Source: Hydrangea macrophylla (lineage: Eukaryota; Streptophyta; Magnoliopsida; Cornales; Hydrangeaceae). From it: DNA of 64,000 bases. The stretch spans positions 12,522,501-12,586,500 of the forward strand of contig CM066990.1 in NCBI GenBank assembly GCA_033977485.1, read 5' to 3'. A program made the translations under genes and the position numbers. The notes under the pieces are model-generated. The model had not been told where the DNA came from and did not search any database. It worked only from the letters and a program-made list of their open reading frames with translations. The first letter of the stretch is position 1, and every line of letters starts with the position of its first letter. This document shows positions 7,386 through 51,240 of the stretch, piece after piece.

Positions 7386-7403
7386 TAGGTCGGTTTTGGG
7401 AAT

Positions 7404-7414
7404 CTATAAATAGG
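7404..7414 (+). promoter_or_regulatory. Copia LTR TATA box
   Basis: CTATAAATAGG, a standard plant TATA box, directly downstream of the palindrome cluster. It recurs at about 9156 in LTR2 and 24418 in LTR4. LTR3 has CTATAAATACG at about 11780. Transcription would start about 30 bp downstream, defining R and U5. Confidence 0.75.
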
Positions 7415-9765: not shown

Positions 9766-9796
9766 GTTGGGTTTGTGCCCTCAAACCATTACTTTA

Positions 9797-10690: not shown

Positions 10691-12123
10691 TATATGGATG
10701 TCAGCTTTACATTTTGTTATGTATGTTTTTTTCATGAGATGATTGTTATCCTTAAGTATCATAGTAAGTAATTTGTGTATGTATGAGATACATACAAGTG
10801 AGATACGAATTGCTATTCTTTGTTACTTAGAACATGTCACAGTGGATGTTGAGACTAGGATATCTCATCAGGTTTACACTGTAGCATGATTAACTACCAT
10901 TGGATGGAGTGATCAATCTTAAATCACTAGAGTGTAACTCTTAGTTAATATGCTAGTGCTTATAGTGCATTGACGGACCTGAGTTTCCTATTGACGCTCA
11001 AGGCTGTCAATCAGTCGATAGGAACTCATAACTTGTGTAAGGTACGTGTTCTCAATCTTGAGACGATTATGAACACAGACTGTGGATATGATTACTTTGT
11101 CTTACCAATCAGTGAGGTCTATAGAAGATCAACACCTGGGTATCTTGGGTATGTCATATTCATAGGGTTGTGAACATATATTGTCAAGACAGAATCTACC
11201 CTCTGTTTCAGAGTAAGCATTCCCTTGAGAATGTCACCAAGTCGATTACTGAGTACTGCAGTCTTGTTGATAAGAGTTATCAACATGTTTGGTAATCATG
11301 AGAGGTGAATGGGACTCAAGGATTATAAGAAGTAATCATGATTCAGGTTGACATTAACTGTTTATCCGACTACCTGAATATGATTGCGAATGCTGACGGT
11401 AGAGGGACATTAGTACAACATACAAGTCTAGTTATCGTTTCGGATATGTTCTTTTACGTTGGAGTTCAGTTATCGTTTTATAGTGGAGTAAACGTTAACT
11501 GATCAGTCGATTAATTTGCTGATCAAAGAGTTTGGTCATGGGAGTTAATCAACTGATCTGAGCCAACAATAAAGGGCCTAGGAGGTCCCACTTTTAGCTC
11601 CGCTAGGATGCTTAGAAAGGCAAATGAGGATGATGTCAAGACAGGTTCGATCGATCGAAGTTGTCTCGATCGATTGAAGTCTAGGCAGGTTCGATCGATT
11701 GAAGATGGTTCGATCGATCTAATGGTCGATCGATCGAAGCCGCTTCGATCGCTTGAGAGCTAGGTCGGTTCTGGGAATCTATAAATACGGCAGCTGCGTT
11801 CTTAAAAAGTGGTTCGTCGTTTTGAACGTCAGAAGCTGCAGAAACTATTTTGGAGCCCCAAAACCTTCTATATCCTCTCCATTAGGGTTCCCACCAACCC
11901 TAGCCCTTCCTGCAAGCATCCATAGGAGTCATAAGAGTGAAGACCATCTAGTGGAAGTCAGAGATTTCAGAATTGGGTTCAAGACAGTAAGGTATAATTC
12001 TTGTCCCCTCTTGTGCGCATCTATAGAGTTGATGGGTAGTAGATCCGGGCATGCCAATTAAGTTTTATAACTTGATTTTTCCGCTGCGCGTTTAAACTTA
12101 GAACTTAAACCGGTTTTCCAACA

Positions 12124-23273: not shown

Positions 23274-24772
23274 TGTTGGGTTTGTGCCCTCAAACCATTA
23301 CTTTATATAGGAGACATTGACATTTTTATATATGGATATCAGCTTTACATTTTGTTATGTATGTTTCTTTCATGAGATGATTGTTATCCTTAAGTATCAT
23401 AGTAAGTAATTCGTGTATGTATGAGATACATACAAGTGAGATACGAATTGCTATTCTTTGTTACTTAGAACATGTCACAGTGGATGTTGAGACTAGGATA
23501 TCTCATCAGGTTTACACTGTAGCATGATTAACTACCATTGGATGGAGTGATCAATCTCAAATCACTAGAGTGTAACTCTTAGTTAATATGCTAGTGCTTA
23601 TAGTGCATTGACGGACCTGAGTTTCCTATTGACGCTCAAGGCTGTCAATCAGTCGATAGGAACTCATAACTTGTGTAAGGTACGTGTTCTCAATCTTGAG
23701 ACGATTATGAACACAGACTGTGGATATGACTACTTTGACTTACCAATCAGTGAGGTCTATAGAAGATCAACACCTGGGTATCTTGGGTATGTCATATTCA
23801 TAGGGTTGTGAACATATATTGTCAAGACAGAATCTACCCTCTGTTTCAGAGTAAGCATTCCCTTGAGAATGTCACCAAGTCGATTACTGAGTACTGCAGT
23901 CTTGTTGATAAGAGTTATCAACATGTTTGGTAATCATGAGATGTGAATGGGACTCAAGGATTATAAGAAGTAATCATGATTCAGGTTGACAGTAACTGTT
24001 TATCCGACTACCTAAATATGATTGCGAATGCTGACGGTAGAGGGACATTAGTACAACATACAAGTCTAGTTATCGCTTCGGATATGTTCTTTTACGTTGG
24101 AGTTCAGTTATCGTTTTATAGTGGAGTAAACGTTAACTGATCAGTCGATTAATTTGCTGATCAAAGAGTTTGGTCATGGGAGTTAATCAACTGATCTGAG
24201 CCAACAATAAAGAGCCTAGGAGGTCCCACTCTTAGCTCCGCTAGGATGCTTGGGAAGGCAAATGAGGATGATGTCAAGACAAGTTCGATCGATCGAAGTT
24301 GTCTCGATCGATTGAAGTCTAGGCAGGTTCGATCGATTGAAGATGGTTCGAACGATCTAATGGTCGATCGATCGAAGCCACTTCGATCGCTCGAGAGCTA
24401 GGTCGGTTCTGGGAATCTATAAATAGGGCAGCTGCGTTCTTAAAAAGTGGTTCGTCGTTTTGAACGTCAGAAGCTGCAGAAACTGTTTTGGAGCCCCAAA
24501 ACCTTCTGTATCCTCTCCATTAGGGTTCCCACCAACCCTAGCCCTTCCTGCGAGCATCCATAGGAGTCATAAGAGTGAAGACCATCTAGTGGAGGCTGCT
24601 GGAAGTCAGAGATTTCAGAATTGGGTTCAAGACAGTAAGGTATAATTCTTGTCCCCTCTTGTGCGCATCTATAGAGTTGATGGGTAGTAGATCCGGGCAT
24701 GCCAATTAAGTTTTATAACTTGATTTTTCCGCTGCGCGTTTAAACTTAGAACTTAAACCGGTTTTTCCAACA
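23274..24772 (+). repeat. Copia LTR4 (3' LTR)
   Basis: 1499 bp, TGTTGGG to CCAACA, followed by the TSD CTAAT. It carries the TATA box at 24418-24427 and the palindrome cluster. It resembles LTR2 and LTR3 more than LTR1. Confidence 0.93.
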
Positions 24773-27921: not shown

Positions 27922-28281
27922 TTAAAGACGTTTATGGGGTTTTTTTCTTCTTCCAGAGGAGTTACTATTTTTATTCCCCCTATTGTGATTAGAAGTTTTC
28001 ATACCTATGGGAGACAAGAATGAGTTAGAAGAATTCTGACCCGGGTCAAGTTCCTGAGCTGGATCAGTGCTCCTAGGGCTGGGTGTAATTTGTGGTGTAG
28101 TAATGGATGTTGAGCTTGAGTCCTCAGTCCCAAGGGTAGGTTCCATAGGGCCATCTAGTTCCTCCTTAGACTTTTGTTCTGAATTGACTTTACAAGGCAG
28201 AACATCTTGACTATCTTTGGTTTCAATAACATCCATTTGTAATGGGGTAGAACAAACAATAACGTTTTGCAATTCCACATC
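27922..28281 (-). pseudogene. LINE-A ORF1 C-terminal part
   Basis: The continuation of LINE-A ORF1 beyond the MITE insert: a Ser/Thr/Pro-rich tail ending in the basic GRRKKPHKRL and a stop at 27922. This matches the end of LINE-B ORF1 (GRRKKSHHRF). A gap of about 30 nt separates the stop from the ORF2 ATG at 27890, unlike the direct overlap in LINE-B. Confidence 0.8.
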
Positions 28282-28476
28282 GAGTAATGCTACACACACA
28301 ACCAAATGCACAACCAATTGCACAACACTGCTTAAAAATGTTGGACTGTGTGCTAAAAAATTTGTACACGCACTGCACATCATTTTGTGTGTACAGACTT
28401 TTTAGCACACAGTCCAACATTTTTAAGCAGTGTTGTGCAATTGGTTGTGCATTTGGTTGTGTGTGTAGCATTATTC
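28282..28476. mobile_element. Mutator-type hairpin MITE in LINE-A ORF1 (195 bp)
   Basis: The ends read GAGTAATGCTACACAC and, on the opposite strand, GAATAATGCTACACAC. The inverted arms match over about 78 nt with one mismatch, leaving a small central loop. It is flanked by the perfect 9-bp direct repeat TTCCACATC (28273-28281 and 28477-28485). Long inverted ends with a 9-bp TSD are typical of Mutator-like MITEs. It introduces stops into ORF1. No coding capacity. Confidence 0.9.
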
Positions 28477-33469: not shown

Positions 33470-33860
33470 CTGCCTATGTACCCCCGAGCGGGGATCAGGT
33501 CCAACGTAGTTCAGGCCAGGACCTTGAAAGAAGGAGGGGTGATTTTTAGGTAGGTGGGATGACTGAACTGATACGATTGCCTACGGATCCCTGAGCGGGA
33601 ATCAGGTCGAGCGTAGTTCAAAGCAAGGCTTGAAAGAAATTGTTTTGATTATGATGATGTCGACCGAACCGATGCGGTTGCCTACGTATCCCCGAGTGGG
33701 AATCAGGTCAAGCATAGTTCAAGCCAAGGTCTTGAAAGAAATTAGTTTGATTATGATGATGCCGACCGAACCGATGCGGTTGCCTACGTATCCCTAAGTA
33801 GGAATCAGGCCAAGAGTAGTTCAGGCCAAAGTCTTGAAAGAAATTGGTTGAGGGTTTTTC
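33470..33860. repeat. Tandem repeat of about 112 bp, Tat-1
   Basis: Four units with 'ttgcctacgtatccccgag', 'gggaatcaggtcaag' and 'cgaaccgatgcgg'. Two related units stand at about 44210-44370 in Tat-2, and single related phrases occur near 3850 and 38490. It is a dispersed motif of this Tat family. Confidence 0.75.
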
Positions 33861-33968: not shown

Positions 33969-36900
33969 TGAGGATTGATCCTTTTCACTTTCGCCTAGCC
34001 AGTTAATTTTACTTTTCATGTAGTTGATTCTTGTGAGATCTTTTGATCACAATTTCAGAATTCCATAATGTGCATATCAGTTCTCGGAATTTATTTGTGT
34101 TCATTCCGAGCCTTTTGAAATGTGATGTAGGCATGTTCTCATGATGTACCTTGAAGTGTACAATTCTCTGTATCACCAAAATTTTCTTCCTTTCATTTTC
34201 TCCATCATTTTGACTGGCTAAGGTCAGATCTTGGAAATCAACACCTTTTTCAGCTCTAACTTTTGCCTAGGTGCCCTTTCGGGTTTTCAACCTAGCGAGC
34301 TTTTCTTTTCTTTCGTTTTCTCTCTATTTTCTCTTTTTATTGTTTTGTTTTGTTTTTTTTTTGTTTTGAAAGGGGAGAAAAAACTCATTGAAAGTGTTTG
34401 GCTACCATTAAGGACTAAGTCTGCACTGCTTTCAATAGACAGATTGTATGGCTCTCCATTGGATTGGGCTTAAGGCTTTGAAATGGTTGAAAAAGGGTGT
34501 TGGGCAAGCCCCAAGTCCGTTTCAAACATGTCTTTTCAAGATTGAGGCAAGAACATCTTTAAATTCTTAAAGTAAGACTATTCAATTCTTAGCTCTTCAT
34601 CGGTGTCAGCGTGAAATCGACTTTGACCTTTTAGGATTCTTTTTTGTTTTGTTGTAGAAAAAACATTAACAGAGCAATATCTATGGTAATTTGAAAAGTG
34701 ATATTTCAGTTCGATGATTCGTGCATTGATGACTAGACACATCAAATTAGACAACAATGAGATTTCATTTCATTAAAAGAAGAAGGATTACATTACTCGA
34801 CATAGACTCATAACAACTTGAAGACTGACAGACTCGACAACAAGACTAAACTTGAAATAGATTCAAAACATAGGACAGACTCGACTAGACTTGGCTTGGT
34901 CTCAAATGGAGTGTCACGGTGACTTGCTTATTCTTTTTTTGAAAGAGCATCCTCATTTGTTTTGCTAGCAAAAGTCCCAAACACCATCGCTTCATCGACA
35001 CAGGTTCAACATTCATGGGTATCAGCAAAAGGGATCATTTGAACAGATGAGCCAGGGGCTTTAGGTTCAATGAAGCTGACTGTGGACACGCGGGATTCCA
35101 CCTCTTGCTAGTTTTGTTTGAAATTTGATTTTGAAAAGAGAGAGAAAAGGTCCGTTGAAAACAAATACAGAGTCGCCACTTGGTCTTTAAGGAACCAAGA
35201 AACCTAATTTTGACTCACCCAAATGGATAAAGGGCACCGGCCCTTCATAACCAAAGAACTTGGCTCGGAGTTTTGGTACGAGAGAGGAAGGAGCCTTTGT
35301 TGCGACTAAAACACCCTCAACTTGCCTCGTCTTTCGACGGGCCTCAATTAGCATCCAAATAATCATCTTATACTATGTATGGTTCGACAATTAATACTAT
35401 GATAGTATATTACATCACATAAGAAAATTTTAAATGGAAGATCTAAAGATAAGATATCATCCATAAGATCTAAGTCAAATATCATACAATGTAAAGTAAA
35501 AGACCACACAAATAAACCTAGGAAAAATTCTCTAATCATATATCAAATAGTCAAGACTTCCTAATCTAAAGGGGGACATGAATTGTTATTGAAACAAATA
35601 ATCAAAGAAATCAAAATATACTTAGCAAGCTATTATGATGCATGTTAATCTTTGAGGAAAGAAGATTTTTCAATCCCCGGGACGGATGAGAAAGGAAGGC
35701 TAGATCAAGGGAAACATGAACGTATTGATCAAGTTCATTCCTTATAATCTTCTTAGATTAGAACTCACAAAAGTCCCAAATCTTTGCATGGATGCAATGT
35801 ATGTACCTAGAATGTGCCAAGGTTGTAGTGTGCTTTGTGTTCATGGATTCCTAGAATGACTTAGGAGTCCAGAATGTGTATGAATGAATGAATGAAATCA
35901 TTATGGGATATGTACAAATGTAGTATGACCTACTTCCTAAGACATGAACTAATTTGGAGTGCATGTAAGCATCAAATCAAAGGAGGAAAGTAAAAGTATG
36001 CTTTCTGTGAATAGTGGACAGAATAGTAACATGATCTTTTAAAAATTGAAAAGAGGGGTTAGGAATGTTTTCAATGCATTATGTTTTATGGAGATCTTCC
36101 TTATTGTTTCTGGAACACAATCCAAAAAGCCAATATTTAATAACTATCATAGATTGGAGAAATCACATAAACAATAGAGGTCACTCAGAAACAGAGTCCA
36201 TACTGTCGACTGAAATGTCAAAAAATCTTAGAAAATGAAAACAAGTGATCTAGAGCCCCATTTTGTACAGAGAGTTCACTAAGACATTGAATGTTAAGGG
36301 AAAAATAAGTTAGGATCACCCCTTTTGGAAACGTTTTCTGAAAAATAAGTTGAAATTCAACCAAGCTGCTGTGACAGCAGAGGCAAAATGTCTGGAAGGA
36401 ATGATTGGGTCCAAATAGACCATTTTCAAGTATTTCCAAGCCAAGCCAAAAATCATGGGTGTTCTCTAATGAGTTAGGAAGACTTTCCAAGTGGCCTTGC
36501 ATTCATACATTGAGTATTGAGTTCTAGAGAAATCTTTGAACTCAGATCACTCACTGTTTTGACTCACTATTTTGAAGATTTTGGGAAAACAAGGTTTATC
36601 TCTTGAAATCAAAGTGAGGGTTTTAAGAAGGGGGTTTTGAAATAGAAGTTTTGAAAGCACATTTTCAATACTCAATGAAGGTTATAACCACTTAAAATGC
36701 CAACATCAAACTCATCACCAAGAACCTCCAAGATTGTTGGAGAGATTTATTTTCATTTGAATAGAACTTCAAGGATACCTTGGAGGTATTGAAGTTATAA
36801 TCATCATCTATCAAACATGTTTTTGAGGTCAAGAGCTACTATCCATAAGGATTCACTCACCTCAAACTTCATGTCATCATCTAGATGATGATGAGCTAGT

Positions 36901-37278
36901 AAGTAAATAAAGGAAATAAAAAATAAATGAGGTAAGAAGAGATGAACATTGCATAAACAAGCATGTAAATAATAAGCAATAGATGATGATCAATGTGATA
37001 TTGGACTTGTAGTTTGATGTTTCACTCATATGTGATGACATTGGACATGGAAGTAGCTTCCTCTCTCTTGAATGCTCACTAAAATGGTGGTTGGGTGTAT
37101 TGAATATGAAGTAAATAGGAGTAATGAAGTAAAAACAAAGTGTATAACTCACTTTTGTTTTGAAATCAAAGAAGAAAGTTTCTTTTCTCTCTCTATCTTA
37201 ACCTTATCTCTACAACTTTCTCTCCCAAAACTTTTCAAAGCTTACATTTGACACCCCCAAAATGAGAAGTCAATGGGG

Positions 37279-37290
37279 GTTTATATAGGC
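37279..37290 (-). promoter_or_regulatory. TATA-like box in Tat LTR 2
   Basis: It has the same minus-strand ATTGGCCTATATAAACC core as LTR 1. Conservation between copies that differ at many surrounding positions supports a role as core promoter. Confidence 0.6.
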
Positions 37291-37430
37291 CAATTTGGGG
37301 TGGTTTTGGGGTTTTAGAAGTGTTCCCATTGGCTCCAAACATCTGAAAACATAGAACTACGTCGTTTTGATTTTTAATTAATCAAAATGAACCCCCAAAA
37401 TAATTACAAAAGTATACTGTTCTGGAGGAT

Positions 37431-37470
37431 TGTGCCGCGGCAGCAGTGGGCCAGTGCCGCGGCGACACTG
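37431..37470. promoter_or_regulatory. GC-rich box array in LTR 2
   Basis: Two imperfect copies of GTGCCGCGGCGGCA, one fewer than in LTR 1. See also 39753-39816. Confidence 0.5.
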
Positions 37471-37990
37471 CTCCTCAATCGTCTAGATAATCCAGTTTAG
37501 GCCCCCAGAGGTTCCGGTATTCGCGAAAAGACCCTATTTCGTCCGAAATTCACAGAAAATGCATACAAACTCCAAATTGAGGTTGTGATATACCTTTTGA
37601 AAGGTAATGGAGTCTATTTTACATAAAAAAAAAATAATTCGGGGATAGGTCACTTTGAAAAGTTTTGCGGTATTTGCGATAAAAGCCGATTTGATCGCCT
37701 TTTTCACTTTCGGAAATTCACGATAAACTCGTTTTAAATCCAAAAATTATGTGCGATATACCATTAGAAAGCTATTAACCTCTAGTATCCATGAACAATA
37801 TTTGAAAATTGTTACGGTGCTTCGGTTCTAAAGTCAAATTTTGGTCAAACTGGTCAAACCTAGGATTCCCGGGAAGTTCTAGAAATCTCTGGGAGCTCCC
37901 AGGAGCTGACGTTTTTGCTCGATTTTCTTTTAAAACTCATTTTAATACTTTCCACGTGATTTAGAATGATCCCAGAAAATTTGGATGATT

Positions 37991-38048
37991 TCGGTCAAAC
38001 TTGGTCAAATCTTGGTCAACCTGGTCAAACCTTGGTCAAATCGGTCAA
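37991..38048 (-). promoter_or_regulatory. W-box-like cluster in LTR 2
   Basis: Six TTGACC motifs (GGTCAA on the plus strand) lie in 58 bp, two more than in the matching part of LTR 1. A further pair stands at 37851-37868. Confidence 0.45.
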
Positions 38049-38330
38049 CGGGGACTTTCCGGGAACTTCAGATGGGTCTCTGGGGGCTGACGATTTTATC
38101 TGATTTTACTTAAAAACTCATTTTCTTACTTTTCTTACGACATAGCATGTTTCCAGAACTTTTGGTCCAAATCTGGGAGTTTTCGGGCTTTCAGGGGCAT
38201 TTTGGTCATTCTGAGCATTTTCAGAAATAGAACCAACTTCCAGGAGTCCTTTTGAGTCTTTTTCGATCATTGTGAACCACCAAGCTATGGGTCTCCTAAA
38301 TCTGATAGCCGACGAAATGGGGTGTCTACA

Positions 38331-38346
38331 GTTTGCCCCTCTTTGG
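38331..38346 (-). other. Polypurine tract of Tat-2
   Basis: On the minus strand CCAAAGAGGGGCAAAC precedes the LTR start TGTAGACACC. It is a cleaner purine tract than in Tat-1. Confidence 0.75.
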
Positions 38347-39752
38347 CATGAACTTACGAGGCAACGCATGTCGCAAGCGAGTGCCAAAGCTTTGAAGAGA
38401 CCGGACTTTTTAGAGGCTATAGATTTAGGATAAAAGATCGTTACAAAAGATGCAATGATGGTGAGGCTAGTGCTGGTCGCGCTCTGTGTGAGATGCCTAC
38501 GTATCCCAAGAGGAATCAGACCAAGACGTACTTCGGGGCACAAAGGAATAAATCACACATGTATGTACACAACAATCAGGTGGATTCTATGCTATATAAG
38601 TGATATACCATGCATGGATGTGATGTGAATCGCGTCCTTAGTCCTATCATGCTTAGTGTTTTGTTCTTAGTATGAGCTGGTGCTATGGGGTGTGTGCTAC
38701 TCCGAGTGGAGTTATGCCGCGCTAGTGTCTCCGACTGTGGTGCAGTGACTGACTTGGATAAAGACACAATGATTTGGAAGACTCTGGGTCTCGGGGTGAA
38801 CTTCTTAGATTATAGGTAGTGTGCTTCGTAAACAAGTGAAATAGATCAGATGCGCATTTTTTAGAAGATGACAACTAAAGGAAGGTGACCGAGGGATCTT
38901 GCGATAAATGATAGGTAAGGAAGCTATGGACAGATGAGAAAGCTCATGATAATCAGGAGATATAGAGCCGTGGAAGGACGGTGCTTCATTTTCAAAATCT
39001 GGATGCGGGCGATGTCTGATTGTTCCTAATGGCCGATTTTTGGGAGTCTGTTCCTCTTTTGTTACTTTCTGCTGGGGGTAGTGGGAACTAGTACCTTTCC
39101 GTATCTGTCCTCGGGAGATGACGTAAGGTTCTCGGAGAATCTCTCTTTTCTTGATCGGGAACCAGGACCCATCACTGAATCTCTTACGGTTGATCAAATC
39201 TTTCGGCGCTCAATCCAAGAGGGCCGGTCGGGGCCTCCGGGAGCTGGTATCTTTCTGTTTCTATCCTCAGGGGATGATGTAGGGTTCTCAGAGAATCTCT
39301 TTTTTCTTGATCGGGAACCAGGACTTATCTCTGAATCTCTCACGGTTGATCAATTCTTTCGGCGCTCAATCCAAGAGGGCCGGTCGGGGCCTCCGGGAGC
39401 TGGTATCTTTCTGTTTCTATCCTCAGGGTATGATGTAGGGTTCTTAAAGAATCTCTCTTTTCTACTTCTTTGGTGTACCGGCCAAAAACCAGGATTCGTT
39501 ACTGAAACTCTCGTGTTTGATCAAAATTTGTGACGGTCGTCCTGAAGTAACCGATTCGGATCTTTGGGAGTCAATTTTCTCAGTTTCTCCCTACTAGAGG
39601 TAGCCCTGATGACTTTTGGACTGCTGGGGGTAAAACCTCATAAATCTTGACCGAAATGGGCTACTGGGGCTGATCGGGTCCAGAAATGGGCTAAAATAGG
39701 TCAAAATGGAGTAAAATGGAGCAAAACGGAGCGAAGCGAGGCCCGCGGGGAG
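38347..39752 (-). other. Tat-2 region between 3' LTR and antisense genes
   Basis: It matches 3696-5414 plus 31021-31100 of Tat-1 but carries only about one GTGAG...CTCAC unit. It contains the 156-bp tandem repeat listed next. No gene is supported. Confidence 0.7.
39075..39480. repeat. 156-bp tandem repeat, 2.6 copies, open in one frame
   Basis: Nearly identical units run from 'ggagctggtatctttctg' through 'gatcgggaaccagg' and 'ccaagagggccggtcgggg'. The unit length is a multiple of three, so a plus-strand frame (39081-39533) stays open and reads a 52-residue repeat (GDDVGFSENL, LTVDQFFRRSIQEGR). The frame has no family resemblance I recognise and Tat-1 holds one broken unit, so I treat it as non-coding. 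Confidence 0.75.
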
Positions 39753-39816
39753 CAGTGCCGCGGCGGCATTGGGCCACTGTCACGGCGGCAGTTGGCCAGT
39801 GCTGCGGCGGCACTGG
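39753..39816. promoter_or_regulatory. GC-rich box array upstream of the PMD gene
   Basis: Three imperfect copies of AGTGCCGCGGCGGCATTGG lie about 230 bp before the PMD start codon. The motif is the one found in both Tat LTRs. It could be a promoter element of the antisense gene or a shared relic of the LTR. Confidence 0.45.
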
Positions 39817-40039
39817 GTGGCTGGACTCCATTTGTGTATATCTCGGGTTTTTTTTTAGCTTTTCAAGCTCATTCTTGACCATTTTGGGGTATTTTTGGAG
39901 CCAAAATCCGTCAAAACACATCTTATGTGCGCTCAGGTGAGTAATCTTACCCCGTGGTTGAAATTTTGATTGGTGTTTTGGTTTGCTCTAATTTTCAAGA
40001 AGAAAGTTTAGTTTTCACTTCCATTTTCTTTGTAGATCC

Positions 40040-42213
40040 ATGGCTTCGAGCTCGAGGAGACCGTCTAAGAAGGCCAAAGAACGAATGAAAGCCAAGAGCC
40101 AAACCCCAGACTTGATTTTACGGGACCCCCAACATCATCTTTCTGCCGCGGCACTAGCGAGCTTGGTATGTGAAACTTTTGGCAGTTTAGGACTATTTCC
40201 ATGTATTGTGCTAGTTTTGTGAGCCGTAGTGTGCACCTAGAGATCGTTAGAAGTTTGATTTGTGCTCAAATGTTGATTTTGTGAAATTGGACCTCGGGTC
40301 ATGAATAGTGATTTTGTGCATCGTTTTTGTTGTTTTTGGTATGTGCAGGTGCCAGAAGTGACATTGAAGGGCCACGGTAGCCTCGCTCACGCTTTTCTGT
40401 GGTACACTCAACTCTCGCCTACCGTCAAGAGAATGGTAGACGATGCCGGGTTTGGCAGCTTTGTCCGCCTGGTTTCAAAGAGTAGCAATGATCTGGCACA
40501 TTTTTACGCTCTCGCTGAGAGATGGTGGGACACCACCAATAGTTTTCACCTGCCATTTGGTCAGATGACCATGACGCCCTTTGACTTCTCTATGATTACC
40601 TGCTTGAGGGTTATCGGGAAACGCCTGATTCTGGACTACTTCTATGAGATCGACCCTGAGGCTGTCGAGATGTTGATTGGGGCTGTTCCCCCTAATCTAG
40701 AGAGGCACTGGTTTCCTTGTGGCTGGCTTTACCGGGCCTACGGCAGAGGGAATCACAACTTGAATAATTCCCAGCTTTTGAGGGTGTATCTTTTGTATGT
40801 CCTTGGTTGCTCGATCTTTGCGACACGGAATGACCGGGTGAGCTTGAGACTTCTTTCTTGCCTGGCGACCATTAGTGAGATCCCTTCTTATGACTGGGGT
40901 GGTGCTGCCCTGGCCCACCTTTACAAGCATATGGGTGAAGTTTTCGGGGGCGATGTCAAATCGACAGGGAGATTTTGGCGAGCTTGGGAGGTATATACTG
41001 CATCTTCTTTTATCTTCTGGCTTTTTGATTTCTGTACTCTTTCTGATTTTGTCTTTTGTCTATGCAGCTTTGGAGCTTTGAGTACCTAAAGATGTTAGCT
41101 CCTTCCCCTGTCGATGAATCAGGTGAAGACGAGGACGGCATGGCTCCTGTGCCTTTGTTTCCACGAGGCTTGAGATGGCGGAGGGATGTTGTCGGGGTAA
41201 AGAGCGGGGCTCACCGGATCGTTCTGCTCAGGAACTTCTTATCTGGGCTGGCGGCTGCTAGTGTTGATTGGACACCTTGGGAGCATGTTGCCTATGCCGC
41301 CCCAGAGGAGATACAGGCGGTCAAACCTCTTTCCTCTTACCGACTTTTGATGGAGAGTACCGAGAGCAGGCAATGGTTCCTCGGTGAGCGAGTGTCTCGG
41401 CAGGTGGTTGGCGGTTCAAGGTATCGCGTCCCTCATGATCCTCTCGCGATGGATGTTGGTGAACTTTTTGGTGATGCTTTGCTGGCGGCCTTAGCTGGTA
41501 CCGATGTTTGGGATCACTTTCTCTCTGAGACCGGCTATGAGACTTACCGTGGCCGCTTTCTGATGCCCAACTTCCCACTCCTGGAGGTGAGTTTCTTTTA
41601 CGTTTTTGTCTCTATCCGTTGCCTATGTTTTTGACTCATCTTTTTCCTAACTTATTTTGTGCCTACAACTTCGCGAGATGTACAAGAGACAGGTTCCCCC
41701 AGTTTCTAATCCTATCCCTCCTTGGGATTGGACTGTTAATGTTTTGGGTACAGACGGCTCCCCCCAGGTTATGGAGGTGCCACGGGTCACGTGTGGGTAT
41801 CCTACCCAGCCAGCAGGCGTCCTCAATGTCCCCTGGAGTTATACTGAGGAGGGCCATGCCTTGGCGGCTAGCTTACGGTCTTTGGTTCTCACGCGAGACC
41901 ATCGGGTATGTCTCTAATTTTGCGCTCCTTAAGGTTATGAGGTTCTAATCCTAATTTTGCCCTTGACAGATGGATGGTATGCGGCAATTTGTCACCAATC
42001 AGATGGCATCCTTGGTAGATTTCTGACGTAACTTTGTTTTTGTACTTTTCGTTGTTTCCCTACTAATTGCCTTCATCTTATTTGTGTGTGCAGTACCATG
42101 GGGGTGGCGTTGGCTCATCGAGGACTGGACCGAGGTACAGAGGTGGTAGGAGGAGGCCATCGCCAACATACACTCCGGGTGGTCCGACAGAGGATGAAGA
42201 AGAGAAGGACTGA
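40040..42213 (+). pseudogene. Plant mobile domain (PMD) gene, six exons, antisense inside Tat-2
   Basis: Exons: 40040-40165, 40349-40990, 41068-41586, 41669-41905, 41970-42014 and 42094-42213. All join in phase 0 and give 562 residues. Exon 2 holds the PMD core: HLPFGQMTMTPFDFSM at about residues 109-124 and LLRVYLLYVLGCSIF, then SYDWGGAALAHLYKHM. These match the aminotransferase-like plant mobile domain of MAIN/MAIL proteins and of transposon-borne PMDs. Exon 6 encodes a Gly/Arg tail (GPRYRGGRRR) and an acidic end. Introns begin GT and end AG, except intron 3 (41587-41668), whose acceptor reads CAA. That suggests a mutated splice site and is why I call it a pseudogene; an alternative acceptor could rescue it. 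No frameshift or stop is seen in the exons. PMD proteins act in the nucleus in silencing and genome stability; a role here is inference. Confidence 0.8.
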
Positions 42214-42587
42214 GGCCGCCTAAGCGGGGATTTTGTTTTATCTCCATTTCATGTTTTCGATTGGGTTGTACTAGTGAATGATATTCGAACAATGTTTAAG
42301 ACAATATGTAGGATGATGTGTGGGATGATTTGTGACCTTTTGGCAGAGTGATGTTTTGCCTTTTAGGCCGGATAGCTTCCGATTTGAAGACGCAGTTGTG
42401 TGCTTGCTTTTATTTGGTGATTGTGTGACGATATACATATCTGTGCACTTGTGATTCTGTGATTGTTGATGTTACTGCAATGAGCAGCCTTGTGATAGTG
42501 AGTGTGTTTGCCTTGCAGGTGGGATAGTCCGTGAAACGGGGAGGTGCTGTCAAAATTTTGAATTTTGCTAGAGCTGCGACAGAAAAT

Positions 42588-43586
42588 ATGGCTTTGTATG
42601 ATCCCGCTCAACTCATAGCTTGGTTGAACATGACAGATGGTGTGGAACAGATCAACCTTTTTAGCTATGGCTTGACCAAGTTGTTCTCTCTTCGCCAGAT
42701 GGCTTTGAACACTGAGTTCATGCGTGTTACTATTGTCTACTGGGACCCGGTGAACCATGTCTTCAATTTTAATGGCCTGGAGATATGCCCCCTGTTTGAG
42801 GAGTTTTGTGCTATCCTTGGCTACGATTCTGATTCTGACCTGATTCATCCTTCTGCTGATACCCCCAGTCCTACGCGACGCTTGGCTGAATACCTGAATT
42901 GTTCCATTACTATTTTCCGCCGGCTGATTCATGGTGAGGTCCTTGATATTGCTTCCATCATTGCCCATTATGCTAGTCCTGGGAGTCCTAGGATATATGA
43001 TGCCACTCGCGGGGCCGCTCTGATATTGTGCATGACTTCACACTTTCTATTCTCGAGTGCTTCTATTGACTTGGTGCACATGTACCTTGGGCTGAAACTT
43101 GGCAGGAATCCTATGGCCATGGTTCTGGCTGAAACCCTGAATGGTTTGGATCGCGCTTCTAATCGAGGAACGCTTCTACTTTCTGGGGCACCTTTGGTGT
43201 TACAGGCTTGGCTCTACGAGCGCCTCCAGTTATGGACAGGTAATGTGCAGCCAGTTTATTTTCACAGAGCTGTGCTTCACCCTCATTATACTTCGGCCGA
43301 TTGGATGGGCGTGATGGGTGCTTTATCTGAGGCTGATATTTGCTGGATCGTGAGGCGTTGGGGTCTCCATGCTGTGACCACTAGTCTCGAGGATTTCTAG
43401 AGGGTGTGGCTGATGGGTCTGAGAGAAACCTCCTTCTATCATCCTCGCCGATTGGCCAATCAGTACGGGCAAGTTCAAGAGGTTCCCAAGGGGTTTACTG
43501 AGAGGATCTTTGCTTCCAGAGCCAGAGCTACCACTATTGCTGCTTTCATTAGGGGCTGGGCCGGTCGAGCAAGAGCTTATTTCTAG
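42588..43586 (+). pseudogene. DUF7745-like antisense gene inside Tat-2
   Basis: An open frame from the ATG at 42588, with the same frame open from about 42531. It reads FNGLEICPLFEEFCAILGY, IYDATRGAALILCMTSHFLF and LLLSGAPLVLQAWLYERLQLW. These resemble DUF7745, a plant domain related to PMD and frequent near transposons. One TAG at 43398-43400 interrupts it; the frame stays open behind to 43586 (FTERIFASRARATTIAAF). It lies 375 bp downstream of the PMD gene on the same strand. A possible splice acceptor (TTGCAG) stands just upstream at about 42512-42517, so 5' exons may exist. Function unknown; the DUF assignment is by recall of motifs. Confidence 0.6.
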
Positions 43587-43600
43587 AGACCTTTGAAGAA

Positions 43601-44396
43601 ATAAATAAAAAAACAAAATAAAACTAGGCTCGACTGATTCTGCTTCTTTCCTCCAAGTGTCTTTGATATTTGTGATTGCTTTATGAAAGAACTCTTTATG
43701 TTTTCATTTATCCCTGCTTATGTAATATTCGAAGTTTGTTTATCGGTGAACCTTGGTTACTTGGAGAACCTTATTTTATGCATTTGGCTTTCTGAAAACA
43801 TTTTTAGTATGATTTTGATCAGATGTTTGCTTTTGGTACTTGCTTGGGCATGCTAGGACGATTAGAGGCAAACGAGGCAGGTAGCCGAAGTTTACCCCTA
43901 GTTTGGGTTATGGATGGTTGTGAGGCAAACGAGGTGGATGACCGACGTTTGCCCCTAGTTTAGGAGGGTTTTAGGCAAACGAGGCAGGTGGGCGAAGTTT
44001 GCCCCTAGTGTGGAGGGTGATTTCTGGGTTATGGTAAGGACCACGACTTTATTTTTCTCACACGCTCATAATTTTGCCTAGGCACCAGTTAGGTGACCTA
44101 GCGAGCTCTTTCTCTCTTTTGTTATTGCTCACTTTGGATTTAACTCTAACTTTTGCCTAGGCGTCCTTTCGGATTTTCAACCTAGCGAGCTATCCTTCTT
44201 TTCTTCTTGGAAGTCTGCCTACGTACCCCCAAACAGGGATCAGGTCCAGCATAGTTCGGGCCAAAGCATTGAAAGAAAAGGGGTTGATTATGATGGTGTC
44301 GACCGAACCGATGCGGTTTCCTACGTATCCCCGAGTGGGAATCAGGTCGAGCGTAGTTCGGGCCAAAGTTTGAAAGAAATTGGTTTTGGGGAATGG
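43601..44396 (-). other. Tat-2 spacer between antisense genes and pol
   Basis: Non-coding. It holds about three 'tttgcccctag' units (43865-44020), the phrase 'ttgcctaggc...cctagcgagc', and two 'cctacgtaccccc...' units (44210-44370). The same block occurs in Tat-1 at 33020-34310. Confidence 0.75.
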
Positions 44397-45769
44397 TCAA
44401 ACATAGTACTTTTTGAGGCAATCCATGTTGATTGGTTCTTTGAATTCAACGCCATCGAGGTCCATAAGGTAGGTCGCTCCTCCGGAAAGGATAGTTTTGA
44501 CGATATAAGGGCCGACCCATTTGGGTTTGAACTTTCCGCGTGGATCAAAGATCAGGGCTCGTAATTCCTTAAGGACAAGGTCACCCTTGACAATTTTCCT
44601 TAAATAAACCCTTTTGTTGAAATCACGGGCTATCCTCTTTTGATAGATTCGAACATAGTCGACGGCCGCTAGGCGCTTTTCATCTATGAGAGCCAGTTCT
44701 TCGTCCCTTTCCCTCAACCAATCTGATTTCAAAATTTCACATTCTGCCATTATGCGCAGAGATGGTAGTTCTATCTCGACTGGAAGTACTACTTCCATTC
44801 CATATACTAGTGAGTAAGGAGTTACTCCTGTGGACGTCCTTATCGATGTTCTGTATCCCCAAAGTGCGAACGGTAGCTTTTCATGCCAGTCTTTGTAGGT
44901 ATCAGCCGATTTCTGCAGTATGGCCTTGACATTCTTGTTTGCAGCTTGGACTGCTCCATTGGTTTGTGATCTGTATAGTGATGACTTGTGATAAGTGATT
45001 TTGTATTCCTCAAACAGATCTCTGACTTCAGCTTTGAAATGACTACCATTATTTGAGATGATCTCATGGGGTACTCCATAGCGACAGATGAGATTCTTCT
45101 TGATGAACTTGGCCACTTCCTTGGCCCCCAACTTGCTATAGGATGCGGCTTCTACCCATTTTGTGAAGTAGTCAATGGCCACCAAAATGTATCGATTCCC
45201 ATTCGAGGCTTTCAGAATGATTTCACCGATGATATCGATTCCCCAGGTTGAGAATGGCCAAGGTAAGGTCATGCTGTATAGAAGGGATGGTGGTACATGC
45301 ACATGTTTGCATGGATCTGGCACTTGTGACACCTTCTTACGTATTCGCAACAACCTTTCTCCAATGTTGTCCAGTCGTACCCTTGTCTTACAATTTTCTT
45401 GGCCAGCATGTGACCGTTCATGTGCGGGCCGCATACCCCCTCGTGTATTTCCTCCATCATTCTTCTGGAGCTTTTTCCAAACAAGCAAGTCAAGTTGTGA
45501 CCATTGTACCCTTTCTTCAACAATTTCCCACCGCAAATGATGAATTGCGTTGCGAATCTTCGAATTGCCCTTTTATCTTTCTCGGTAGACTCTTGGGGGT
45601 ACGTCCCCTTTTCTATGAAGTTCCAGACATCCTGATACCACGGTGTTTCATTCTCTTCTTCTTCGATTGCGGCGACTATGTTGAACGAAGGCTCGTACCT
45701 TTGCTCAATTACCAAAGGCATCATCTTGACTCCCACAGGAATTTTGATCATGGAGGCTAAGGTAGCCAA
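44397..45769 (-). pseudogene. pol: Tat-2 integrase
   Basis: Minus strand. The zinc-binding part (MMEEIHEGVCGPHMNGH, CCEYVRRCHKCQIH) is in one frame and the catalytic core in another, with a frameshift near 45300. The core reads WGIDIIGEI, then IISNNGSHF and NGAVQAANK. In relatives these are SDNGSHF and GAVEAANK, so the second acid is Asn and the third is Gln. Two of the three catalytic acids are lost and the enzyme must be inactive. The C-terminal region (PKWVGPYIVKTILSGGATYLMDLDG) ends at the natural stop at 44397. Confidence 0.9.
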
Positions 45770-45781
45770 TGAATCTGCTAG

Positions 45782-46120
45782 CTAGTTCTCTTCCCTAGGC
45801 AAGTAGAGGAATGTGATGTTCTTGAACTGCCTCTTGAGTTGATCGAGATGATCATGATAGGGCTTCAACCTTTCTTCTTTTACTTTCCATTCTCCTCTAG
45901 CTTGCAATATAATGAGGTTTGAATCCTCGAAAACATCCAGCTTCTGAACTTTCAGTTCTATGGCTGCTTCCATCCCCAGAATGCATGCTTCATATTCAGC
46001 AGTGTTGTTGGTGGAGTTAAAATTGAGCTTGACTGCCAGCGGAGTGTGGTCCCCACTTGGTGATACTAGAATCATTCCTACTCCGTATCCTTTCATGTTG
46101 GCTGCTCCATCAAAGTACAA
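45782..46120 (-). pseudogene. pol: Tat-2 second (plant-type) RNase H
   Basis: YFDGAANMKGYGVGMILVSP and NNTAEYEACILGMEAA, then FEDSNLIILQ, are the motifs of the additional archaeal/plant-type RNase H. This domain follows the regular RNase H in the Tat/Ogre lineage and is a lineage diagnostic. D, E and D positions are mostly kept. Stops bound it on both sides (46121 and 45781). Confidence 0.85.
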
Positions 46121-46123
46121 CTT

Positions 46124-47551
46124 TCACTGTTCTTCCTTGATTTCCATGATATTTTCGTCTGGAAGTGGAAAGTCCCAACTTTCTTCGGAGTCAACAGCGT
46201 GCTCTGCGAGATGCTCAACTATGATTCTCCCTTTTACCGATTTGCTTGTAAAGTACTTGATATCGAATTCAGATAGTAGAAGTAACCAACGGGATGTATG
46301 ACCGGTCAGGGCGGGTTTTTCGAGGAGGTATTTTAGAGGATCCATGCGGGATATGAGCACAACCGGGAAGGCCAGCATGTAGTGCCTCAGTCGGCGAGTG
46401 CACCAAACCAAGGCCCAACAGGTTTTTTTGAGGGTAGAGTAGTTGAGCTTATACCTAGTTATCCTCTTGCTGAGGTAATATATGGCTTTTTTGGAGTGGC
46501 TTTCTTCTCCTTCTTGGGCTAGCATGCAACCCATGGCATTTTCGGAGACAGATAGGTAAAGGAATAAGGACTTATGAGGAGTGGGTGGTGAAAGGACAGG
46601 CGGATTTTAAAGGTGGGCTTTTATTTTGTCGAAAGCGGCTTGGCATTGGTCATCCCATTGGAACTTTTCTCCTTTTCTCAGCAATCGGCACAAAGGATCG
46701 CATGTAGTTGTGAGTTTGGAAATGAAGCGGCTGATAAATTGGACTCTTCCGAGAAACCCTCTCACTTCTTTTTCATTCCGTGGTGGTGTCATTTCTAGGA
46801 TTGCCTTGATCTTAGAGGGATCTACCTCTATCCCCCTTTGTGTGATGAGAAAACCCAGGAGCTTACCAGAGGTCACACCGAAAGTGCATTTCTTAGGATT
46901 CAATCTCATCTTGTATTTGCGCAACCTCTTAAAAAACTTTTCTAGTGCCACTAGGTGTCCTTCTCTGTCCTTGGACTTCATGATCATGTCATCTGCGTAC
47001 ACTTCTACTTCCTTGTGAATCATGTCATGCAGCAGAGTGGTGGCAGCTCTTTGGTAGGTTGCCCCAGCATTCTTGAGTCTGAAAGGCATTACTCTATAAT
47101 AGTAAGTTCCCCAAGGGGTGGTGAATATCATTTTTTCCCGATCTTCTGGCGCCATTAGAATCTGATTGTACCCCAAAAAACCATCCATGAATGATAGTAG
47201 CTCATGTCCTGCGGTGTTATCCACCAAGACATCAATGTAGGGAAGCGGGAAGTCATCCCTGGGACTGGCTTTGTTTAGATCACAGAAGTCGACGCACACA
47301 CAAACTTTTCCATCTTTCTTGGGGACTGGCATGATATTGGCAACCCATTTCAGATACTCGGTGACAATGATGAACCCTGCCTTGAATTGATTCTCCACTT
47401 CTTCTTTAACCTTGAGTGCCCATTCTGGCCTCATCCGTCTCAGTTTCTGCTTGACAGGTTTAGAATTGGAGAGGAGAGGAATATGATGTTGGACAATGTC
47501 GGGATCGACCCCAGGCATGTCCTCGTAAGACCAAGCGAAAAGTGAAAACAT
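46124..47551 (-). pseudogene. pol: Tat-2 reverse transcriptase and first RNase H
   Basis: RT: VPKKDGKVCVCVDFCDLNKASPRDDFPLP, FMDGFLGYNQI, TTPWGTYYYRVMPF and the catalytic YADDM. RNase H: NAMGCMLAQEGEE, AIYYLSKRI and RLRHYMLAF. A stop and frameshift near 46606 separate RT from RNase H. The sequence follows the Ty3/gypsy order (RT, RNase H, integrase) and the residues are those of the Tat lineage. Confidence 0.9.
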
Positions 47552-49400
47552 CCTTGAATTCTTTTAGCAAGAGAGTCAATTCTTCTTTTTCTTTTTTATT
47601 AAGAGTTGAGCCAATTTGCACAATTTGCGGATTATCTGTTTCACCTAGGTTAACCGATAAAGTATCTTCAATTATTTCGTAAGCAAGTGGTTTTTCAATT
47701 AGTTGCTTAAATTCGATTGGGAGATCCTCGAAGGGATCTGTGCATTCACAAGTATTAGACACAGAGGAGTAAGCAAAATCGTCTTTCATTTCATTCACGA
47801 CAGGTGAAGTAATTACATTGGACAGCGATGGGCCTACAACAACCAACTCTGGTACAGACTCAATAATTGGCAGTACAGACTCTGGGGGAACAGGGGTTAG
47901 GGAGACCCAGACAGATGACTCTACAGCCTGGTTGCTCAGACCCTCCTTAGTTGGCTTGATCTGATCATCTTGGCTCTCGGCCCTCTTTTCTTCCTTCTTT
48001 TCAGCGAATTCTTCCTACATTTTCTCGATGGCTTCAGTGTCCAGGTACATCAACCAGTCTTCCTCCGGGGTTTTCACAACTTCTTCAAGATAGAACGGAT
48101 CTTGATAGGGGGGCCTTTCACAGTCAACAAAGATTTCCAGCCCGGAGTGCCTTTTTCCAGTGGCCTGATGGATCCAGGGTTCCGGGAACCCAAAGTAGGG
48201 AAAATCATCCCCTTCTTTGATGAATTGCCCATTTAAGTAGGGGAGACTCCTCACCCTTTTCTTCCATGGCCCTGTAGCTCGACGTCTTCTTCAGTGGGCT
48301 TGTACCCCTACCCAAAAGTGTCTTGTTGCCCTTTGATCTGAGGGAACTCCCGAATTCCTTGCTGGCGTCGGCCCAATCCCATTCCAGGGAAGTAGTTCAT
48401 TTTGCGGACAATGTTGACAACTGCGGAGTGAATCTCGGGGAACCTGTCTTCATCATTGATCATGTGGACTTCTTCCATGAAGAATCCCCTGATTTCTCCT
48501 TCTTCTAGCTCAGGTATTTGGACATCGAAGATGGGAGCGTAGTTTTGGAAAGCTTCATTACCCCAACTATTGTCGAGGATGATTTTTACCTCCTTTTCAT
48601 GAGTGTACTTGATCATTTGATGCACAGTGGGTGATACAGCTTTGTTGACATGCTACCAGGGCCTTCCGATCAACAAGTTGAACAAGGCAGGTATGTCCAT
48701 GACTTGAAAGACTTTAGTGCTCACCAAAGATCCTACCCGAATTTGGAGAAAAACAGTTCCCATCACATTTCTCTTGGTGTTATCGTAGGCCCTCACGGAT
48801 TGCACAGACGGTGTGATGTCAAGGACATCGACCCCCAAGGCGGTGGCAGTCCTTAGGGCACAAACATTTAAGGCAGAGTCTGTATCAACCAGACAAAATG
48901 GCACCTGCCATCCCTTACATCCAACAGTGATATACAATGCTTTGTTATGTGCAGATCCTTCTGGTGGTAGGTCTTCACCAGAAAATGTAATGATTGGGTC
49001 AGGGGTAAGTGCGCCCAAGAAATCCACCATGTCTTCCGGTGCGGCATCGATGGAGACTTCTATTCCGACCAGGGCATTAAACACAGCTTGCCTATGCTTG
49101 TAGGAATTTACCATGATGTCCCACATCGAGATATGTGCTTGGGTTTTCTTCAACTGCTTTATCAACTCATTATCTTCCTTGATGATTTCGTCCATTTTTC
49201 CCTTTCCTTTGTCTTTGATCGGACTTTTTTTGATAACCTCGGTGGTAGGCTGCAGAGGCTGATAATGACGGCCTGACCTAGTCAGATGATCAATTTCGGC
49301 AGGGGTAGGCCCTTCTACAGTCCCATCTTCTTTGAACCAGTCGCAATCTGTCCTCACAAATGATTTCTATGGCTCATTCCTGATAGAAGCATCGCTTTCA
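47552..49400 (-). pseudogene. pol: Tat-2 protease and G-patch region
   Basis: The aspartic protease (49357-48653) has VPFCLVDTDSALNV at the active-site position. Tat elements usually show D-x-GS there, so the site looks altered. It ends with LFNLLIGRPW. Downstream, NYFPGMGLGRRQQGI (about 48370) is a G-patch-like motif, known at this place in several gypsy elements. The remaining segment to 47552 is acidic, rich in ELVV and EFKQLIEKP text, and interrupted by several stops. Confidence 0.8.
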
Positions 49401-49512
49401 TTGTCGGGATCATACCATTTGAGGTCCACTACCCCTAGATCATGTTCTTCTAAGAAGAATAGGTCTTGTTCGTCAGCTAGCTGTTGCTGCCACTCGTCAT
49501 CCCCTCCGTCAA

Positions 49513-50961
49513 TCAGATGAATTCCCACAGATTCTGGATGTCAATGAGGGGTAAAGGTTGAGCTACAAGGGTGATATAGGTAGCAGGGTTGAAAGAAACA
49601 TGGTTGGACTCAATGAGGCTGATGTTTTGGTGGTTCGATAGGGGATTTTGAGTGACATGGGGCTGCTTTGGAGGTGGCTCGATGATATTTGGGTCAATGA
49701 GGTCTTGGATATCATGGTGGAGGCGTATGCAGTCATCGGTGTTGTGGCCAGGGGTGCATCTTTTGGACATGTCACAGTTTGGCGGGAGCGGGGTATTTCG
49801 TGGCTGGAGTAATTAGAGGTGGCCCTTTTAAGGAGGTGATCTAAGGCTGAAGAGAGAGGGATTTCTAGTTTGGCGAAGTTGCGAGGAGGCTTCCTAGGGA
49901 AAGAGGGATTGGAGGAATTAGCTTGGTTGAGAGGTTGGTATGGCCTAGGAGGGTAAGCCATAGGTTGACTGCTAAGGGCATTGACATCTGGAGGATTGCG
50001 GGAGTAGTTGGGCCTTTTTGACTGACTCGGAGGCTCTTCTTTTTTTTTTTATCTTTCCTTCCCGTATGGCATCTTCAATTTGAGTCCCAACTTCAAACAG
50101 CTCTTCGAAAGTGGAGATGGACTGATAAAACAATTTTTTATGGTAAAGCGGTTGCAGATTCCGGATTAGCATTCTCACCTGTTCCTTTTCAATCGGTCGG
50201 TGGGTCATTTATGCCACTTTGTTCCTCCATCTGCTTAGAAACGCAGCGAAGGATTCATTGCTGTTCTGCCGAGTAGTTTCCAAATCCCTGATAGTGACGT
50301 CAAGTTCTTGGTTATAGGAGTAGTGATCAACGAATACCCGAACTATGTCTTCCCATGCCCGAGTTTTGGAAGCTTCCAAGGTAAGGAACCATGATAGTGC
50401 AGACTTCATGAGAATTTATGGGAACAGCATTGCAAGGTGCTCATGGGTACAGGCATAGATTGGAAGATGCTCACACAGCTTTACATGGCTCTTTGGATTT
50501 TAGGTCCCATCGAAACGGTCAATGGCAGGCATCTTGAAGTTTTCCGGTAGCTTCATCTTAACAGGTTCAAAAAGGCCTTCCAAGCCCAGCATGTAATCAT
50601 CAATCCCTTTGCTTTTCCTTAGTACACTTTCCAGCTTGTCAACCTTATCCATTTTTTCTTGGAGCTTCTTCTTATATGCAAATGGTGGGACCCCTTGAAG
50701 CCAGTCTTCCTCCCCGTTATTCTCATGTGGGGGCAGTTCAAACCCCGGTGGTGGAAACCCAAGCGGAGGTTGCGGCCGCTGCTGCTTCAATTCTTCCATG
50801 AACTTCAGAACTTGGGCTAGGCTGTCAGACTGCTGGCTTATGGTTGCTCCCAACTCAATAGCCTTGTTTTCTAACTCTTCTCGATTCATGCTGAAGTAAG
50901 CTGTCGGACTGATTCTGACCAAACGATTATCTGAATTCCTGACCCACGACGAGGATCCCAA
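49513..50961 (-). pseudogene. gag: Tat-2 gag
   Basis: The frame begins near 50961 with a coiled-coil-like stretch (NREELENKAIELGATISQQ) and a Pro-rich segment. It continues after stops with the Retrotrans_gag core (TRAWEDIVRVFVDHYSYN, SNESFAAFLSRWRNKV, MLIRNLQPLYHKKLFY). The zinc knuckle is represented by CTPGHNTDDCIRL, a reduced form common in Tat Gag. At least three frame breaks (about 50500, 50208 and 49970). Confidence 0.88.
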
Positions 50962-51240
50962 CTGCTGACTTCGGGAATCTATACTGACCTGACAAATTTC
51001 GAGAGGACTAGATCAGATTTTGACAGTGATGACTTTAGACAAACAAAGACAGTGATGTTAACAAACGTAGACTGACTTGTGTAAGAATGATCGAGACAGT
51101 GCGTGCAGATTGATGGGACCATATGCAAATGAGACAAGCACGCAGATGTAAGTCCTAATCTATATGATGCTCCTATTTCTAACAGATAGCAGTTAAACAA
51201 TTAAGGTCCCAACCATACAGAGTGTGCCAGAGAAATGATA
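50962..51240 (-). other. Tat-2 sequence upstream of gag, cut by LINE-E
   Basis: A non-coding stretch that should belong to the Tat-2 leader. It ends near 51240 where LINE-E sequence starts, so Tat-2's 5' LTR and primer-binding site are not visible in the window. Confidence 0.55.

Follow-up and report, generated by a model that had tools for sequence, protein, structure and literature searches.

An intron-bearing plant mobile domain gene in antisense between the integrase and the 3' long terminal repeat of a Tat retrotransposon in Hydrangea macrophylla

How can a gene with several introns be carried along by an element which multiplies by retrotransposition? This question is raised by a stretch of 64,000 nucleotides of the Hydrangea macrophylla genome (the window; C9:12522501-12586500 in an assembly of 2.22 Gb and 19 contigs), in which positions 38331-44396 form the interval between the 3' long terminal repeat (LTR) and the integrase of a Tat (Ogre/Retand-type) Ty3/gypsy element lying on the minus strand. 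The original prediction, made from the letters alone, had placed a plant mobile domain (PMD) gene in this interval in antisense to the element, and Pfam matches and an LTR comparison confirmed this. A second gene, containing the domain DUF7745, had been overlooked; the two genes follow each other head-to-tail on one strand, opposite to pol. Dispersed copies retain the introns as well as the arrangement, in which a PMD gene with several introns and a DUF7745 gene with none occupy the space between integrase and 3' LTR; purifying selection acted on the PMD protein during the multiplication of the element. The explanation preferred overall, with a probability of about 0.6, is that the two genes constitute an antisense accessory module of the retrotransposon; that they are accessory genes of the element is in itself considered very likely.

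Structure of the two antisense genes

The six coding exons of the PMD gene (Table 1) all join in phase 0, as predicted, and yield a stop-free protein of 562 (or 559) amino acids. Joining the exons raised the PMD match from 83.5 bits for the exon 2 frame alone to 109.7 bits over profile positions 15-284, compared with a Pfam cut-off of 34.9 (PF10536), which bears out the PMD core recognised earlier. The spliced protein aligned with a PMD protein of Rhododendron vialii at 32% over 529 alignment columns, where the join of exons 2 and 3 is free of gaps, the join of exons 1 and 2 shows a gap of three residues, and the surroundings of the join of exons 3 and 4 align poorly. By its sequence the protein is basic at the N-terminus and rich in arginine and glycine at the C-terminus. 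No solved structure of a PMD relative was found with P0001 as the query (best E 0.032, an unrelated enzyme).

The single departure from GT/AG introns which had been noted holds for the window copy, where AG is absent from the intron 3 acceptor at 41667-41668. It is present there in 28 of 30 aligned sequences (the window and 29 of 35 other full-length copies described below, fetched as 13 plus 16) and altered in the window and one other copy, and a non-canonical intron was therefore rejected. An in-frame AG nine bases downstream is a possible substitute. Upstream of the coding exons, the interval 39937-40035, which the original prediction had passed over, is probably an intron of the 5' untranslated region (5' UTR), with the TATA-like box before it as a candidate promoter.

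The DUF7745 gene matched its family with 39.5 bits (E 4.8e-10; cut-off 26) and the PMD profile weakly (E 1.1e-4, below the PMD cut-off), and it contains a PMD-like stretch, GAPLVLQAWLYERL, with no intron in it. The open reading frame (ORF) runs from 42588 to 43400, and the frame stays open to 43586 past one stop, which occurs in the window copy and is absent from the four other copies aligned there. A gene model of Rhododendron molle (P0016) contains PMD at 309-583 followed by DUF7745 at 925-1105, and since it holds both in the same order the pair is not confined to the Hydrangea genome; the window ORF matched this model at 31% (E 2e-22). The homology search with DUF7745 returned one protein, and no mention of the domain was found in open-licence literature. 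An acceptor-like tract, TTTGCCTTGCAG, at 42507-42518, 69 bp before the DUF7745 start codon, is strongly conserved (one base differs in L021) and might serve as acceptor for a splice from the PMD transcript. In the copy L023 the 3' end of DUF7745 (window 43001-43600) is 22-23% diverged from the window and from L022, compared with 9-14% elsewhere in the module, which suggests recombination between subfamilies.

Two stop-free frames on the plus strand, of 290 codons for DUF7745 and 270 codons for PMD exon 2, exceeded the maximum of 216 codons reached in 300 first-order simulations. Open frames alone prove little, because a minus-strand frame of 224 codons also exceeded this maximum; the better evidence for genes is given by the domain matches and by the patterns of change at codon positions.

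Copies, introns and selection

If the PMD gene is cargo of the Tat element, as had been proposed, further copies should carry it at the same place, and a genome search with positions 40040-43600 did find them. Scoring of the best 40 of 4370 candidates gave 41 matches on 16 contigs, with at least 36 full-length matches including the window on 15 contigs. The 35 others have a length of 3516-3572 bp (query 3561 bp) and an identity of 86-94%. In all four copies for which the context was retrieved (L021-L024) the order of integrase, DUF7745, PMD, and tandem repeats is identical, and sequence alike to the 156-bp tandem repeat region is found in each; the junction of LTR and internal sequence was located at the expected place in three of them and not found in L024. 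The five coding introns were kept in all 29 copies fetched, with lengths within 2 bp of those in the window, in a sample drawn toward intron-bearing copies since copies without introns would score lower in the search. The proposed survival of the introns through retrotransposition is borne out by these copies.

The dN/dS comparison suggested at the outset was run on all 435 pairs of the 30 sequences, which share branches, so that the figures are descriptive. The rate of nonsynonymous change (dN) stayed at 0.057-0.067 across bins, while the mean rate of synonymous change (dS) was 0.088 among the closest pairs (n=3) and reached 0.428 among the most diverged (n=37), with summed dN/dS values of 0.70 and 0.157, respectively. 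A flat dN with rising dS is the mark of purifying selection on the PMD protein during its spread. In the regression of dN on dS, the intercept of 0.053 is taken to reflect neutral decay of inserted copies, and the slope of 0.035 constraint during the spread of the element. Individual exons were measured against a clock of the third positions of exons 2-4, with bootstrapping over sequences. Exon 2 (positions 1 and 2, slope 0.027 [-0.019, 0.067]) and exon 6 (positions 1 and 2, -0.010; third positions, 0.677) thereby stand apart from the introns (0.249 [0.174, 0.329]). Intron interiors differed less than third positions overall (0.092 vs 0.162), for which base composition is suspected to be the reason. 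An excess of change at third positions was also found in transversions (p 0.0022 for PMD, 0.0034 for DUF7745; site permutations, 14 sequences), and deamination of methylated cytosines is thus not its whole cause. The deepest DUF7745 pairs yielded a dN/dS of 0.14-0.16; constraint on this gene is less secure, since all of these pairs involve L023 with its unusually diverged DUF7745 end and since the slope of the gene equals that of the spacer, as given below.

Splice signals are largely retained, with the donor GT in 28-30 and the acceptor AG in 27-30 of the 30 sequences for each intron, and all ten dinucleotides intact in 16 of them. Donors were kept better than other intronic GT pairs (0.967 vs 0.869, n=30), and donor and acceptor conservation jointly gave p 0.018 for 30 sequences and p 0.034 for 14. 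The support for intron 2 which comes from outside the family is stronger than this conservation within it. Intron 2, between AWE and LWSFEY, coincides with an intron between LLQ and (M/I/L)W in PMD-C-like genes and in genes borne by Mutator-like elements (MULEs) of the same genome, a coincidence absent from the original prediction. At five such loci (L009, L010, L013, L014, L015) an exon ends in LLQ and resumes in phase 0 with (M/I/L)W and AWER or VWER, with GT/AG at the aligned point; at L012 only the donor was seen. The frame continues intron-free through this point in L001-L003 and L008, which are PMD-B-like, and L016 has no intron there either. All 24 short-contig PMD homologs listed, which were taken to be plain ORF calls, were checked. 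In fourteen of them the residues E-V stand at intron 2 and the match breaks off at this point or no more than about 10 residues later, which is to be expected of an ORF caller that enters a GT donor; P0038 and P0066 read through, P0036 has E-G, and the remaining seven stop before this point, span a different part, or are ambiguous.

As an observation apart, L009 (C17:94155000), L010 (C6:34145500), L011 (C1:81273500), and L014 (C1:79575500) belong to multi-copy elements with an intron-bearing PMD gene. L009-L011 are mostly 97-99% alike (L010 about 99% to L009), and L014 is mostly 83-94% alike to L009. A MULE transposase domain occurs in L009 and L014 and an HROB (OB-fold) domain in L009 and L015, the HROB ORF of L009 being convergent.

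For the placement of the gene a wider homolog search retrieved 158 proteins at E <= 0.001, of which 120 were listed, compared with three in the first homology search. The strongest PMD matches in the Hydrangea genome (L001-L003, L008-L016) were rejected as copies of the window gene because they are PMD-B-like, MULE-borne, or PMD-C-like, and the window's own gene is not among the best own-genome matches listed. The labels PMD-A, B, and C are used here by resemblance; as the comparison was made without the reference sequences of Ikeda et al., membership of these clades is inferred. A PMD tree with MAIN and MAIL1 had been envisaged in the original prediction. The tree obtained, from the N-terminal halves of 23 PMDs, two of them badly trimmed (P0049, P0116) and one untrimmed (P0100), and without any MAIN/MAIL sequence, pairs the window gene with P0054 (61% identical) and splits the window gene and its group of database homologs (the P-proteins) from the genic and MULE-borne PMDs of the genome with support 1.0; it thus places the gene relative to PMD-C-like stand-ins, and not relative to MAIN and MAIL1. 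Among the PMD-B-like loci, L003 (C10:101573830), L006 (C11:9770433), and L008 (C10:70919206), situated on two contigs, are 96-97% alike over 2.5-4 kb, which marks them as recent, dispersed copies within a PMD class that otherwise looks genic.

Function, alternatives and origin

The genomic RNA of the element is minus-strand; the cargo introns stand in it as their reverse complement and no splicing of them is expected, and a plus-strand message from an internal promoter could be spliced and translated. Because plus-strand splicing cannot touch minus-strand genomic RNA, an intron-bearing gene can be passed on by retrotransposition. The cargo genes would be transcribed from the internal promoter to which the TATA-like box and the 5' UTR intron point, and spliced like host genes. 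Since selection acted on the protein between insertions, the PMD protein should act in trans, presumably in the nucleus and on behalf of the element. There it might ease silencing by binding or displacing components of the host MAIN/MAIL1-PP7L complex. Interactions of MAIN with MAIL1, and of both with PP7L, have been reported, and the silencing of transposable elements requires these proteins (PMC7156037); an anti-silencing use of PMD by MULEs has been speculated upon (PMC5418596). Competition in this complex was for these reasons taken as the first choice of function, tentatively and with considerable doubt.

Several observations weigh against a functional accessory module. Each of the 29 other copies has its PMD frame interrupted by between one and six stops, and frameshift indels were found in 10 of the 13 copies checked. 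Exons 3 and 4 have slopes (0.144 [0.084, 0.206] and 0.173 [0.082, 0.292]) which overlap those of the introns, and exons 1 and 5 show no resolved coding signal by slope. For DUF7745 the slope of positions 1 and 2 on its own third positions is 0.22, and that of the spacer is 0.21. Splice acceptors were no better kept than other AG pairs (0.933 vs 0.928, n=12), and in transversions alone splice dinucleotides showed no excess conservation (0.0229 vs 0.0169 for intron interiors). Transcription and splicing of the PMD gene are themselves predictions from DNA, and in the tree the window gene falls outside the PMD-C-like group, which is the class of the silencing proteins. The ubiquitous stops would suit an old captured gene which travels as a passenger of no use to the element, and the function of such extra ORFs has been called rather speculative (PMC6317226). 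This is nevertheless improbable, as the flat dN with rising dS (slope 0.035) and the third-position excess in transversions require that the protein was selected for between one transposition event and the next. The other copies present today are dead members of a lineage formerly under selection.

Codon-level constraint and phase-0 exons would likewise be unexpected if the antisense transcript itself, as double-stranded RNA or as small interfering RNA, controlled the element and the protein were irrelevant, a role which has been raised for antisense ORFs generally (PMC7264820) and which appears here still more improbable than a mere passenger. A host gene at the insertion site is hardly credible: the gene-like anatomy with introns would fit it, but there are 35 other full-length dispersed copies, which led to the rejection of a host gene interrupted by the element, and all four contexts show integrase and DUF7745 in the same place, giving no support to a syntenic host gene extending beyond the element borders. 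The main rival concerns the function of the protein and keeps it as cargo. It might serve another step of the element, such as nuclear import, RNA packaging, or targeting of integration to heterochromatin, for which the basic N-terminus, the arginine- and glycine-rich C-terminus, and the nuclear location of the antisense protein of maize Grande (PMC7264820) can be cited. Against this, those PMD relatives whose role is known act in silencing and transcription (PMC5418596, PMC7156037). Such a role is regarded as quite possible, though short of an even chance.

On the reading as an antisense accessory module, a further step concerning origin may be considered. Because a phase-0 intron lies at the same residue in both, the retrotransposon PMD and the host PMD-C genes could descend from one intron-bearing ancestor by passage, in either direction, at the DNA level with the introns in place. 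Antisense carriage would then be what allowed such a gene to persist in a retrotransposon, and the element would still use its PMD together with DUF7745 as an antagonist of the PMD-based silencing of its host. In this complete form the proposal is rather unlikely. The direction of descent between a Gypsy PMD and the silencing genes MAIN and MAIL1 was left open in PMC5418596; the intron common to the Gypsy gene and the PMD-C-like genes is a marker which may help to settle this, and it argues against passage through spliced RNA. The PMD gene also offers a gene-level target for asking whether retrotransposons carry counter-silencing factors.

Known systems and the surrounding sequence

Cargo of this kind is known. 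The clades PMD-A1 and PMD-A2 are described as encoded exclusively by Gypsy elements (Ikeda et al. 2017, PMC5418596), PMD was the most frequent extra domain in a screen of 121 genomes (PMC9289625), and it was found in 57% of Ogre elements, where extra ORFs lie in the 5' or 3' part in forward or reverse orientation (Neumann et al. 2019, PMC6317226). The novelty implied in the original prediction is thereby limited: Gypsy-encoded PMD had been published in these three papers. The main text of PMC5418596 makes no mention of introns, of which the window gene has five. In PMC6317226 extra ORFs were called by getorf at >=250 codons with exons left unjoined, and in its available part an Ogre gag-pol intron is the only one described, unlike the several introns of the cargo here; surveys by ORF finders seem to undercount multi-exon antisense cargo. 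Open-licence literature yielded no report of an LTR retrotransposon whose antisense PMD gene has conserved introns, nor of the PMD and DUF7745 two-gene module or of an intron which such a gene shares with PMD-C-like genes. The gene extends a known kind of Gypsy cargo and does not found a new one.

Resemblance to individual families is partial. With the Ogre elements of PMC6317226 the element has in common the PMD cargo, large LTRs and tandem repeats (features of non-chromoviruses), and an additional RNase H (aRH) between RNase H and integrase. Like the TRP28 ORFs of Retand (Vicient 2025, PMC11963269) the cargo is coding sequence in antisense, placed downstream of pol and before the 3' LTR, in many cases accompanied by tandem repeats, and conserved across copies; Retand, however, carries TRP28 and not PMD, its LTRs measure 315-1194 bp compared with 3250 bp, and the main text of that paper does not mention introns. 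The gene23 of maize Grande, likened by description and not by sequence, likewise lies in antisense within the 3' internal region and has a promoter of its own and a nuclear product; PMC7264820 mentions neither introns nor PMD. With host MAIN/MAIL1 (PMD-C) the PMD domain is held in common, and the PMD-C-like loci of the Hydrangea genome share the intron 2 position with the window gene but stand in a separate group of the tree described above.

The element itself shows the aRH between RNase H and integrase, by which Tat elements are recognised, with reverse transcriptase, both RNase H domains, and integrase all on the minus strand, in the order given for Ogre and Retand in PMC6317226. Of the features which bear on Ogre versus Retand, a PMD cargo and an LTR of 3250 bp were seen, and the two cargo ORFs scanned gave no TRP28. 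For gag and protease four minus-strand ORFs were found at 47463-51012, with no Pfam family over its cut-off. The 5' LTR was not found in the window nor in the 30 kb to its right. The element copy is truncated or interrupted near 51.3 kb and its 5' end is missing; from there the sequence was read as like a long interspersed nuclear element (LINE) and then as another gypsy element on the plus strand.

Table 1. Positions in the window of the antisense genes, their signals, and the parts of the Tat element
Feature	Position	Strand	Remarks
3' LTR of the Tat element	35081-38330	-	3250 bp; plus-strand ends TGTGGACAC...GTGTCTACA, the latter adjoining the purine-rich tract
Purine-rich tract, polypurine-tract-like	38331-38347	-	beside 3' LTR; read from sequence
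156-bp tandem repeats upstream of PMD gene	39083-39463		repeat families D5, D7
Putative TATA-like box of possible cargo promoter	39830-39842	+	kept in 4/5 aligned sequences
Probable 5' UTR intron	39937-40035	+	CAG/GTGAGTAATC ... TTCTTTGTAG/ATCCATGG; donor and acceptor identical in 5/5 aligned sequences
PMD coding exon 1	40040-40165	+	spliced frame; codon constraint alone unresolved
PMD coding exon 2	40349-40990	+	first half of PMD core; Pfam match
Intron 2	40991-41067	+	same position as in MULE-borne and PMD-C-like genes
PMD coding exon 3	41068-41586	+	remainder of PMD core
PMD coding exon 4	41669-41905	+	start 41678 if downstream AG serves in window copy
PMD coding exon 5	41970-42014	+	15 codons; too short for separate coding test
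PMD coding exon 6 with stop	42094-42213	+	third-position slope high, positions 1 and 2 flat
DUF7745 gene, intronless, distant PMD relative	42588-43586	+	Pfam PF24924; stop 43398-43400 in window copy
Integrase	44397-45572	-	Pfam rve, 36.5 bits vs cut-off 32.6
Additional RNase H (aRH)	45784-46123	-	Pfam RVT_3
RNase H	46124-46606	-	Pfam match
Reverse transcriptase	46607-47563	-	Pfam RVT_1

A second LTR copy at 422-4160 is 83% alike to the 3' LTR together with about 480 bp of internal sequence. The likeness is lost after that, and a second cargo copy in the window was rejected.

A motif CCTACGTATCCC...GGAATCAGG...GTAGTTC recurs with variations at 33580-33849, 38496, and 44320, both in non-coding sequence of the element and in the flank to its left. 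By eye, a near-perfect inverted repeat resembling a miniature inverted-repeat transposable element was seen at 28280-28475 inside a minus-strand LINE-like element. Four direct copies of 1.5-1.8 kb, 95-98% alike, at 6280-12399 and 23275-24772 represent a recently amplified repeat beside LINE-like ends.

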